A stretch of 64,000 nucleotides of DNA from Flavobacteriaceae bacterium (GTDB lineage: Bacteria > Bacteroidota > Bacteroidia > Flavobacteriales > Flavobacteriaceae), in contig JAGYKX010000005.1 in the NCBI GenBank assembly GCA_018401115.1, positions 496,001 through 560,000 on the forward strand, written 5' to 3'. Below the pieces are notes generated by a model. The model was not told the origin of the DNA. It worked only from the letters and a program-made list of their open reading frames with translations, and did not search any database. Positions 20,956 through 24,900 of the stretch are shown here, one piece after another. The position numbers were made by a program, and so were the translations under genes. Positions within the stretch are counted from its first letter, which is position 1, and the number at the start of each line of letters is the position of its first letter.

Positions 20956-22500
20956 CTATCTTATTTTTAACAAGGCTTTTTCTCTTATAATATCGGCCAC
21001 AGGCCTACCACTTAAATGACTTTCTAACCAGGAGAGAACATCTAAATATAAAAAAGCCCTTTTCTCATAAGGATGGTCTTCGTAAACTTTAAGTTTGGTG
21101 TGCAATTTTTTAAATGCATCTTGTAAATCAGATGGGTATATTTGGCCCAAATTTCTCAAAAATACAATCATTTCTTTTTGCACTGCATGAAGGTCATTCA
21201 TCTTTAATAGAAACTTATAAGTGCTTTTAAGTTGAATTTCCAAATGATAATCCATCCCAGATTCGTAATGAGCCACAAGGCTCAATACCCTTGCAAAACA
21301 CATAAGGTCTTCTCGCATTTTAAGGTGTTTGTTTTGAATTATTTTTTTTAAATAAACAATACAATTCTTGTGATCCCCTACCCCAAAATACAAACAGGCA
21401 ATTTTATAATACAACAGCATAATGTGATGTTGGTCCAACCTGTCTTGGTGTTTGTCTATCCCATAATTAATGGCTTGGACTAAATATAAACCTTGCTTAA
21501 AAGTGCCTTCCAGAAAATGAAGGTTCAATTTATTTGAATTTAAGTATAAAAATGACAGCGCGCTTATATTGTCATTTTTAGGGAAAAAGTCACTCTGCAA
21601 TACCGCCTCCATATGGTCTAGTGTCTCTTTAAACTGAGAGCTGTACTTGACATAGAAAAGTGATTCTAACAAATAGTTATTCCCTTTAATGTAAAAGACA
21701 GGGTGTAGCTGTATCATGTCTTTTTGTTCCGTAAATAACTGGACCCATTTACTGGCATATTTGTAACTAGAGAGGAAATCTTGAGTGAGAAAACTATACC
21801 ATAGATACGCTTTATACAACCATAATTTCTCTCTAAAACCCAATTGGTCTATCTGGTGTTCTGGTAAATTTTCATGAAAGTAAGAAGTGATTTTACTCAA
21901 GTCTTCATCTGATCTAGCATAGCCCACCTTAAGCATCATAGCATATAATTCCAAGGACAAATTAGACAATTTACTAGCCATATTGTTTTCAAAAGATAGC
22001 CGGCTAGACTGTGTGACCAATTCTTGTGCTCTGTCTGGAATACTCCTGGTAATATATTGGGTTTCTATGACTTTTTCTAACTCAACTATCTCATAAGCGA
22101 TATTTTTTTCTTGTTGCTCAATAGCGAGTGTCTTGGCTTTCTCTAATATTTTTAAACTCTGTTTGTACAACCCCTTTTGATACAAAATGGTCGCGAAATC
22201 CAGTTGTTCTCTTAACTGAACCCTAATATTTTGATTGACTGGATTAAGTCTTAGCGATACTAATATTTGCTTGTATAAATGCGCTTTTAAATTAGATAAT
22301 TGGGTTTTTTTGACAATACCACTATCTAGAATTACGGCTTCTTCATATTGCTTTGCGCGATCTATAAGATTGAATAAAGCCAAAAATTTTGCATCTGTGT
22401 TTACACCCAATCTACCTACATAAAGTTTGAATTGCCTTTTTTCAGATTTTGAAAGTGATTTAACTAAAACAAATAAAGGGTCTTTATGTAGATTTGTCAT
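20956..22500 (-). CDS. Alpha-helical repeat (TPR-like) conserved hypothetical protein
   Basis: A 514-residue cytoplasmic protein with no signal peptide or membrane segment. It begins MTNLHKDPLFVLVKSLSKSEKRQFKLY, a start I associate with a family widespread in flavobacteria but unnamed. The body is almost all helix-forming sequence, with repeated pairs rich in Leu, Tyr and Lys that resemble tetratricopeptide units (for example ILYQKGLYKQSLKILEKA). No catalytic motif is seen. It diverges from leuA, sharing a 144-base intergenic region. It may be a scaffold or regulatory protein, but this is not shown. Confidence 0.8.
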   Translation of the reverse strand: MTNLHKDPLFVLVKSLSKSEKRQFKLYVGRLGVNTDAKFLALFNLIDRAKQYEEAVILDSGIVKKTQLSNLKAHLYKQILVSLRLNPVNQNIRVQLREQLDFATILYQKGLYKQSLKILEKAKTLAIEQQEKNIAYEIVELEKVIETQYITRSIPDRAQELVTQSSRLSFENNMASKLSNLSLELYAMMLKVGYARSDEDLSKITSYFHENLPEHQIDQLGFREKLWLYKAYLWYSFLTQDFLSSYKYASKWVQLFTEQKDMIQLHPVFYIKGNNYLLESLFYVKYSSQFKETLDHMEAVLQSDFFPKNDNISALSFLYLNSNKLNLHFLEGTFKQGLYLVQAINYGIDKHQDRLDQHHIMLLYYKIACLYFGVGDHKNCIVYLKKIIQNKHLKMREDLMCFARVLSLVAHYESGMDYHLEIQLKSTYKFLLKMNDLHAVQKEMIVFLRNLGQIYPSDLQDAFKKLHTKLKVYEDHPYEKRAFLYLDVLSWLESHLSGRPVADIIREKALLKIR

Positions 22501-22644
22501 CGTATTATTAAAGTACTAATCTATTGTATATAAGTAACTTAACAAAGGTCTATGGGCGCTGTGTATTGTAAAACAAATACTAAAATTCGGTTTACTCACT
22601 AGCAATTATTATCTTCGTTAGTAAGACCAAATTACGGAAATATA

Positions 22645-23805
22645 ATGAGTAAAGACAAGGTATTTATTTTTGACACCACTTTGAGAGATGGCGAACAGGT
22701 TCCTGGTTGTAAATTAGACACCCCTCAAAAACTAGAAATAGCTGCGAGACTAGACGAATTAGGTGTAGATATTATTGAAGCTGGCTTCCCTGTGTCTTCA
22801 CCTGGTGATTTTAATTCAGTTAATTTAATATCAAAATTAGTAAAAAACGCTTCTGTCTGTGGATTGACTAGAGCTGTTAGAAAAGATATTGAAGTAGCTG
22901 CTGAAGCGCTTAAATATGCTAAAAAGCCTAGAATTCATACCGGTATTGGCACGTCTGATTCACACATAAAATTTAAATTCAATTCCAATAAAGATGCTAT
23001 CATTGAAAGGGCTGTTGCCGCCGTTTCTTATGCAAAAACTTTTGTTGAGGATGTTGAGTTTTATGCTGAGGACGCTGGTAGAACAGACAATGAGTTTTTG
23101 GCTAGGGTATGTGAAGCTGTCATAAAAGCTGGTGCTACAGTACTTAATATTCCCGACACCACCGGATATTGTTTACCTGAGGAATACGGTGCTAAAATTA
23201 AATATTTAAAAGAACATGTAACAGGTGTTCACAAAGCAGTTTTGTCTTGCCATTGTCACAATGACCTTGGGTTGGCTACTGCAAATGCAATTGCGGGAAT
23301 CCAAAATGGGGCAAGACAGATTGAGTGTACTATAAATGGCATTGGAGAAAGAGCTGGAAATACTGCGCTAGAAGAAGTAGTGATGATTATGAGACAGCAC
23401 CCTGATTTAATGTTAGACACTAATGTTAACAGCCAGTTACTCAATGATACCAGTATTATGGTTTCTAGAAATATGGGGATGATGGTTCAGCCTAACAAGG
23501 CTATTGTTGGTGCAAATGCGTTTGCTCACAGTTCTGGAATTCATCAAGATGGTGTCATTAAAAACAGAGAGACTTACGAAATTATTGATCCTGCAGAAGT
23601 AGGCGTTACAGAGTCTTCCATTGTTTTAACTGCCAGAAGTGGCAGGGCTGCTTTGGCTTATAGATCAAAAAATGTGGGCTATGAGCTTACTAAGACACAA
23701 TTAGATAAAATTTATGCGTTGTTTTTAGATTATGCAGATTCTCATAAAGAGGTTACAGATGAAGGTATTCACGAAATTATGGCTCAATCAGGATTTGAAT
23801 TTTAA
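22645..23805 (+). CDS. leuA: 2-Isopropylmalate synthase, short form (LeuA)
   Basis: A 386-residue DRE-TIM barrel enzyme that condenses acetyl-CoA with 2-oxoisovalerate, the entry to leucine synthesis. It shows [13 protein letters not shown] near the start, metal-binding [26 protein letters not shown] and HSSGIHQDG, all intact. The C-terminal leucine-sensing domain of about 120 residues in classical LeuA is missing, which is usual for flavobacterial forms. A near-match to the -7 box (TATCTTCG, 22610-22617) lies upstream. The next gene, 24 bases on, is a catalytically dead LeuB relative; leuC and leuD are not in the window. Confidence 0.92.
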
Positions 23806-23829: not shown

Positions 23830-24900
23830 ATGAACTTAAGGGTAGCGCTTTTAACACATCAAGGAGAAGAAAACACCGCCATGGATCAGGTCGTTAAATG
23901 TATTCGCGCTATTGAAGAAAACTACAACCATCTTTTCACAATACATACTTTTACCCCTGAGTTTAGAAACAATTTGACTCTATTGGACCAAGCAACCATA
24001 AATAGTTGTAAAAATTCAGATGCTATATTAAGTTCATTTCCTGTTTCAAAAAATGCATATCACATTTCAAAAGAAGGAATTAAAACTAATATGCTTGATA
24101 TTTTTAATTGTTATGCAAGTGTTTTACCTACTCTTCCCTTCCCAAAGCAAGTTAATTTTGGGAAATATGCTTCGGATAAAAATGTAGATATTGTGGTTTT
24201 TTCTGCACTTAAAGCAGGAAATTATGCTGCTGTAGAAATAGCTACTAAGTCAGGTGTAGATACCTTTCACTCCAATATTCAAAGTGTTAATCAACTGTTT
24301 CATTTAGCTTTTAAGACCGCAAAAAATAGAAAACAAAAATTACATATTGCTATACCTGAAGGGCCGTATAAAAAATCTATTTGGGCAAAATCTGTGGCTG
24401 AGATTGCCCCTAGTTATCCCATGGTTAAGACATTTATGTGTGATATTTCTGTAATCATACAAACTGTATTGAAAACCCCTGAAAACTTAGATTGTATTTT
24501 TACTGATCGCGCTCATGGGAAAATCGTAAACAGTTTGAATAATAATTTATTTGGACTAGATAAACTACTTCCCAATGGTCATATGGGAATTGGCGTAAAT
24601 CTTTTTGAACCATTAGAGGAAATAAACAGTTCACTTAAGAACAGAAGCAATCCTATACCTCTAATCTATTCTTTGGCATTACTCCTCTCTAGATTTGGGC
24701 TGCAAGAAGAATCTGGAGCCATTCAAATGGCTGTTAATAGTGCTGGTGAAAGGGCTATGTTCACTTGCTCAGACACGCTGCCAAAAGGCATTAACTGTGA
24801 CCAATTAGGTGACTATTTGGCTGCTGCTATTATTGATTCAGAAGACATAGGAGTATTGAATGGCGAGAATATAGATTTAGGAAAATCTACCATTATTTAG
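23830..24900 (+). CDS. LeuB-fold pseudoenzyme (isopropylmalate dehydrogenase relative lacking catalytic residues)
   Basis: A 356-residue intact protein that aligns along its whole length with 3-isopropylmalate dehydrogenase: HLAFKTAKNRKQKL, EIAPSYP, LLPNGHMGIG, FEPLEE, the LSRFGLQEE helix and the QLGDYLAAAI end all match. The active site is gone. The substrate arginines become Leu89, Leu99 and Ser125; the catalytic Lys becomes Ile175; two metal Asp become Lys231 and Ser235; the N-terminal GDGIGPE loop reads THQGEEN. Only Tyr132 and Asp205 seem kept. There is no stop or frameshift, so it looks maintained. A regulatory or structural partner of LeuA is one possibility. Confidence 0.8.
   Translation: MNLRVALLTHQGEENTAMDQVVKCIRAIEENYNHLFTIHTFTPEFRNNLTLLDQATINSCKNSDAILSSFPVSKNAYHISKEGIKTNMLDIFNCYASVLPTLPFPKQVNFGKYASDKNVDIVVFSALKAGNYAAVEIATKSGVDTFHSNIQSVNQLFHLAFKTAKNRKQKLHIAIPEGPYKKSIWAKSVAEIAPSYPMVKTFMCDISVIIQTVLKTPENLDCIFTDRAHGKIVNSLNNNLFGLDKLLPNGHMGIGVNLFEPLEEINSSLKNRSNPIPLIYSLALLLSRFGLQEESGAIQMAVNSAGERAMFTCSDTLPKGINCDQLGDYLAAAIIDSEDIGVLNGENIDLGKSTII

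Follow-up and report, generated by a model that had tools for sequence, protein, structure and literature searches.

A degenerate LeuB-family protein that keeps a conserved C-terminal tail in a Flavobacteriaceae bacterium

Feedback control at the step catalysed by LeuA is usually exerted through the C-terminal leucine-sensing domain of this enzyme. In the superfamily that includes LeuB, the beta and gamma subunits of IDH3 and yeast IDH1 are regulatory subunits, which form a hetero-oligomer with a catalytic subunit. In other systems, a C-terminal peptide is recognised by a TPR solenoid, as in the PEX5–PTS1 and HOP–EEVD pairs. One report describes extra regulatory subunits of IDH3 (PMC5543436). 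A library search of titles and the starts of abstracts gave no account of a LeuB pseudoenzyme, or of the tail described below, among the matches listed. The novelty lies in the LeuB type to which the degenerate protein described here belongs: it carries a C-terminal tail lying beyond all matches to solved LeuB sequences.

The window is the whole stretch of DNA analysed, 64,000 nucleotides from a Flavobacteriaceae bacterium (genome G000), and the features considered in it are as follows.

20956–22500, minus strand: c1, a 514-aa open reading frame, divergent neighbour of leuA and candidate partner (TPR_8 match below cut-off, helical model, association with the leucine locus)
22501–22644, no strand: intergenic region between c1 and leuA, 144 bases, with putative divergent promoters and no Rfam match at the gathering threshold
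22645–23805, plus strand: leuA, a short 2-isopropylmalate synthase of 386 aa with no LeuA_dimer domain, 24 bases before the pseudoenzyme gene
23830–24900, plus strand: degenerate tailed LeuB, a pseudoenzyme of 356 aa (stop codon not counted), assigned from Pfam and NCBIfam matches, site alignment and dN/dS
24862–24897, plus strand: C-terminal tail GENIDLGKSTII (residues 345–356), the best-conserved 12-residue segment, with the STII end

The gene downstream of leuA is an uninterrupted frame, and its product belongs to the Iso_dh superfamily PF00180 (70.9 bits over residues 10–326 against a Pfam gathering cut-off of 27 bits). A chance match is excluded by the family E-value of 1.5e-19. The first-pass annotation had described a full-length open frame of the LeuB family, which agrees with these results. 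However, the protein scores 59 bits against the 353.2 bits demanded by the LeuB equivalog model TIGR00169 of NCBIfam. We aligned it with intact LeuBs of related genomes and scored 20 active-site positions, using what we take to be the residue numbers of Thermus LeuB; 16 of the 20 differ. The substrate arginines are replaced (R94 by Leu89, R104 by Leu99, R132 by Ser125), as are the metal aspartates (D217 by Ser207, D241 by Lys231, D245 by Ser235), the GDGIGPE loop reads HQGEENT and the HGS cofactor loop reads EEI. Tyr139 is retained as Tyr132. Five of these replacements (Leu89, Leu99, Ser125, Lys231 and Ser235) and the missing GDGIGPE loop had already been recognised by eye in the first pass. 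However, the residue that was taken there for the catalytic lysine, Ile175, is only the neighbour of the aligned position, which is Pro176. The protein thus lacks the substrate arginines, the catalytic lysine and the metal aspartates by which a LeuB is identified, as expected of a pseudoenzyme, an enzyme homologue without catalytic residues. An AlphaFold2 model built from four sequences has a pLDDT of 31, and a LeuB-like fold is presumed from homology.

The genome of the window (2.37-Mb assembly, 91% complete) encodes a second PF00180 protein at C5:333255, in which all 20 sites are intact and which scores 436 bits against the LeuB cut-off of 353. With this intact second LeuB in the genome, the window copy ought to be unnecessary as an enzyme of the pathway. 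The second LeuB has no tail, lies about 186 kb from the window gene and adjoins a 508-aa synthase with a LeuA_dimer domain. The best match of this synthase is the CimA model of NCBIfam, at 670 bits and below the cut-off of 950, and its neighbours include presumed leuC, leuD and ilv cluster genes. Here and in all loci examined, the labels panB, pheT, ilvE, ilv, leuC and leuD are our assumption.

Among the 11 other genomes available for the genus, seven carry an orthologue of the window gene, in one case partial. Their identities to the window protein are 96, 92, 82, 50, 34 and 34%, with 85% for a fragment at a contig edge; a contig-level scan of the genomes found three. No internal stop was seen in any copy. 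In two further genomes of the genus, G002 and G004, leuA is retained and no LeuB adjoins it. The dN/dS ratio, estimated by the simple Nei-Gojobori method on non-independent pairs, is 0.163 between the window and G001, 0.141 for G010, 0.120 for G008 and 0.021 for the orthologue pair G003–G005, with a large synonymous excess in these pairs (Fisher p 2e-8 to 1e-66). The pairs window–G011 (0.192) and window–G003 (0.249) were set aside because dS is saturated at 2.5 and 3.1. Across the same four pairs, leuA, panB and pheT give 0.03–0.10. Because the ratios of 0.12–0.16 exceed the leuA values of the same pairs three- to fourfold, constraint on the window's group is relaxed. The window subgroup is therefore less constrained than its neighbour genes; the G003–G005 pair is not, since its 0.021 is as low as the 0.029 of panB and pheT. 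The gene is nevertheless kept by purifying selection. The first-pass annotation had proposed retention under selection without the enzyme residues, and the orthologues and the unsaturated pairs support this proposal. It had also named the absence of orthologues together with neutral dN/dS as the mark of a decaying copy. Both were looked for, and because orthologues are found and dN/dS is 0.02–0.16, simple decay is not what is seen.

Tailed LeuBs are found in many relatives within the family and in some genomes elsewhere in the class, usually beside a short LeuA. They are about 372 aa long and most end in NIxLG[QKR]STII, whereas untailed LeuBs end near residues 351–356. When an intact tailed LeuB is compared with 33 solved sequences, no match extends beyond residue 352 of 372. 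The first-pass annotation had overlooked this tail. In a comparison of the seven degenerate copies from the genus with 51 tailed LeuBs of one-LeuB genomes, the tail ranks first of 361 12-residue segments, with an identity of 0.652 against a mean of 0.263 and 0.228 for the active site, and the HLAFKTAKNR region comes second. In a further degenerate pair, G021 and G243, the tail ranks tenth, outranked by nine segments, with an identity of 0.817 against a mean of 0.406 and 0.273 for the active site. All ten aligned degenerate copies end in STII. The constraint on the tail acts mainly on the protein, because its codons vary synonymously across 99 tailed genes. The last 15 codons of the G003–G005 pair (L010, L009) carry none of the 106.5 synonymous changes of the gene and no nonsynonymous change either, which hints at an added constraint at the DNA or RNA level; of three pairs examined, only this one has unchanged tail codons.

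These results bear on the possibility that the gene is a redundant, functionless copy in slow decay whose frame happens to be still unbroken. Such a copy could be afforded beside an intact LeuB, and its branches are long: identity to the G003 and G011 proteins is 34–49%, against 85–90% for leuA. Its dN/dS exceeds that of its neighbours in three of four pairs, and LeuB is missing from the locus in G002 and G004. However, slow decay is already disfavoured by the low dN/dS of G003–G005 and the values of 0.12–0.16 elsewhere, by the unbroken frames, and by a tail that is better conserved than the active site, and we consider it improbable. The gene probably encodes a LeuB-family pseudoenzyme retained because of a non-catalytic function that resides, at least partly, in the C-terminal tail, as judged from sequence comparisons.

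Active-site erosion is also seen elsewhere among tailed LeuBs. The profile is matched by 244 of 299 genomes of the family. Tailed LeuBs were read from 60 genomes in which no second LeuB was found and from 106 with an untailed LeuB, nearly all of the window's family; L031, L109 and L113, which are of unclear status, and loci of other families were set aside before counting, and the two-LeuB count excludes G306 and G270. The nine-residue catalytic core is intact in 60/60 one-LeuB rows compared with 46/106 two-LeuB rows (Fisher p 5e-16, relatedness ignored), and all 20 sites are intact in 44 of the latter. The tail ends in STII or STIV in 58/60 and 106/106 rows, respectively. The 106 rows supersede an earlier two-LeuB sample (13/71 with all 20 sites), which was biased to weak scores. 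The one-LeuB set is itself a sample, in which G014, G026, G050 and G059 were judged by a single profile search; because three of them are 80–84% complete, a second LeuB may be missed in these four. On the tree, the state of the core changed at least nine times, the degenerate groups being left uncounted, and all changed rows belong to two-LeuB genomes. With four starred pairs, an independent-pairs test relating core loss to redundancy had no power. Among the loci set aside, L109 (G097) is a tailless LeuB in which every scored site is intact, and no second LeuB of the untailed type is listed for G097. Candidates from G085, G271, G109, G139 and G302, degenerate LeuBs to judge by score, were rejected, as their frames of 505–516 aa are of isocitrate dehydrogenase size.

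In a large group of tailed LeuBs the metal ligand D245 has become E; the 49 rows with D245E fall within a fully supported clade of 50. Tailed LeuBs with D245E (L019, L093, L120 and others) nearly always carry S275A as well, and always occur in genomes with a second LeuB; they may be inactive or altered. In G510, of another family of the class, a tailed LeuB with D245E (L205) lies beside leuA, and the untailed LeuB is in a separate leuC–leuD–synthase operon (L207). The window's group, in which 13–17 of the 20 positions of each of the seven members are changed, branches beside the tailed LeuBs of G258 and G066 (support 90), in which D245 and N187 are the only scored sites lost.

Two other degenerate lineages are known to us. 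One is a 352-aa tailed LeuB of G021 and G243, two species of a single genus; 15 of its 20 sites are changed in G021 and 14 in G243, and dN/dS between the two is 0.232 (Fisher p 2e-8 or less). Neither another LeuB nor, at E 1e-20, a LeuA was found in either genome. Because c1 divergently adjoins the degenerate LeuB in both and LeuA is missing from both, LeuA was presumably lost before the two species split. They nest among one-LeuB genomes on the tree, so that their core went with the pathway and not by way of a second LeuB. In G387, of another family of the class, the tailed LeuB carries R94H, R132Q, a gap at Y139, K185N, D217Q, D245G and other changes; it retains the tail, and G497, a genome of that genus, holds an intact relative. 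No LeuA was found in G387 at E 1e-20 and no other LeuB at E 1e-100, and neither leuA nor leuC was found in the locus of its degenerate LeuB. The LeuD of G387 (L201:6815–7399) reads ASCEQA where its G497 relative has the SSREHA motif. The trees place the three degenerate lineages apart. An AU test of a single origin rejects the union of the second and third lineages (p 0.015) and rejects neither that of the first with the second (p 0.47) nor that of the first with the third (p 0.27). Separate origins are argued by the tails and gene neighbours, which resemble those of each lineage's own clade.

These lineages also bear on two readings of the window protein. One is that it is a regulatory subunit paired with the intact untailed LeuB, as in NAD-isocitrate dehydrogenase. 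This arrangement has a precedent in the same superfamily, and an untailed LeuB is present in the same genome. However, G021 and G243 have no other LeuB with which the degenerate copy could pair, none was found at E 1e-100 in G387, and the two LeuB genes of the window genome are far apart, so that such pairing is hardly to be expected. The other is that the protein is a changed enzyme with a new chemistry that is independent of the LeuB residues. The protein is under selection, and Tyr139 is kept in 5/7 copies of the window's group. However, Tyr139 is kept in 0/2 of G021 and G243. Within the window's group, identity is lower at the active-site positions than elsewhere in the protein (0.43 vs 0.55), which is unlike an active pocket, and new chemistry is very improbable.

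The short LeuA beside the window gene led the first-pass annotation to guess that the pseudoenzyme is a trans-acting regulator of LeuA, replacing the missing leucine-sensing domain. The premise holds, as the LeuA has no LeuA_dimer match. A length of 386–401 aa is usual for LeuA in this group, including genomes with an intact tailed LeuB. The 24-base gap between the two genes is consistent with the guess, and of 20 loci that hold a tailed or degenerate LeuB, 18 contain leuA; in one of the two others the contig ends. Conserved LeuA columns are also more numerous in the presence of a tailed LeuB (15 vs 2.1 in shuffles), and a relative-rate comparison of LeuA and c1 leans towards more constraint there, both being confounded by relatedness. 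However, degenerate tailed LeuBs persist in G021, G243 and G387, where no LeuA was found at E 1e-20; the window gene has a LeuA beside it, and its role may differ from theirs. Furthermore, LeuA occurs without a tailed LeuB in 20/20 loci fetched from such genomes, one LeuA being cut by a contig end. Since these loci, including those of G002 and G004, keep LeuA and nearly always c1, the job of the tailed LeuB is dispensable. The part of the proposal that concerned retention under selection without the enzyme residues is supported, and the part that rested on LeuA is not supported in the form given. Binding of LeuA by the window protein is possible but weakened, c1 being the better candidate partner, and regulation of LeuA by the protein is rather unlikely. 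An Rfam search of the window found no leader RNA at leuA, and promoter-like sites are in no excess over shuffles. The same window carries a Bacteroidales small SRP RNA (RF04183; 32278–32384, minus strand, 111.8 bits).

No Pfam family matches c1 above cut-off, and TPR_8 is found below cut-off in six of the eight members scanned. A low-confidence AlphaFold2 model from four sequences (47.6) has 25 helices and no strand. c1 is present in 41/51 and 10/26 genomes examined. It is retained where LeuA alone is left; G015 and G007 have LeuA and no c1. Among 28 LeuA-less genomes, c1 is found in 3/3 with a degenerate tailed LeuB and in 1/25 without (Fisher 0.0012, from two lineages only). Across the genomes tested, c1 tracks the leucine locus, and it was not found in 24 of the 25 genomes that have neither LeuA nor a tailed LeuB. 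Its dN/dS between the LeuA-less G021 and G243 is 0.043 over 425 codons. We tentatively regard c1 as the most likely partner of the tailed LeuB, with LeuA as the next candidate.

The sequences show that where a genome also carries an untailed LeuB, mostly next to a second, longer synthase resembling LeuA (CimA-like in the window genome), the tailed LeuB is no longer required as an enzyme. In such genomes it has often lost metal or substrate residues, and in the window's genus nearly all of them, and the tail is retained. A non-catalytic role acting through the tail may be inferred: the tail would be a docking peptide that lets the tailed LeuB, whether or not it is active, regulate the pathway of branched-chain amino acids or serve it as a scaffold. 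More speculatively, the tailed LeuB of the whole class may moonlight, with its C-terminal peptide read by c1. The two would form a regulatory pair of the leucine locus that remains after catalysis has been lost, and even after the other parts of the leucine pathway have disappeared, and enzymes would have been converted to signals several times, the window protein being among the most advanced cases; we hold this wider picture to be possible at best.

The tail common to the window protein and its working relatives suggests a second, non-catalytic job for the LeuB family. The living relatives display graded stages, from an intact enzyme through the change of a single metal ligand and the change of almost all sites to outright loss, and a short peptide that stays fixed amid the erosion of an enzyme points to a function that selection sees. 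This second role of LeuB becomes directly testable, and it may be a pointer to the control of LeuA in a large bacterial group in which LeuA has no sensing domain.

Compared with LeuB as defined by PF00180 and TIGR00169, the window protein is homologous over nearly its full length and branches within the tailed LeuBs. However, it lacks the catalytic, metal and cofactor-loop residues, falls far below the LeuB cut-off and has a tail. The short LeuA of the window differs from a LeuA with a C-terminal leucine-sensing domain. Like IDH3 beta and gamma and yeast IDH1, the pseudoenzyme is a member of the same superfamily that would act beside a catalytic paralogue. However, those regulatory members form a hetero-oligomer with it, whereas here the partner is putative and no second LeuB was found in G021 or G243. 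Binding of the tail by c1, whose TPR matches lie below cut-off, is conjecture, and in this the locus differs from PEX5–PTS1 and HOP–EEVD; it resembles them in combining a conserved C-terminal peptide with a helical neighbour.
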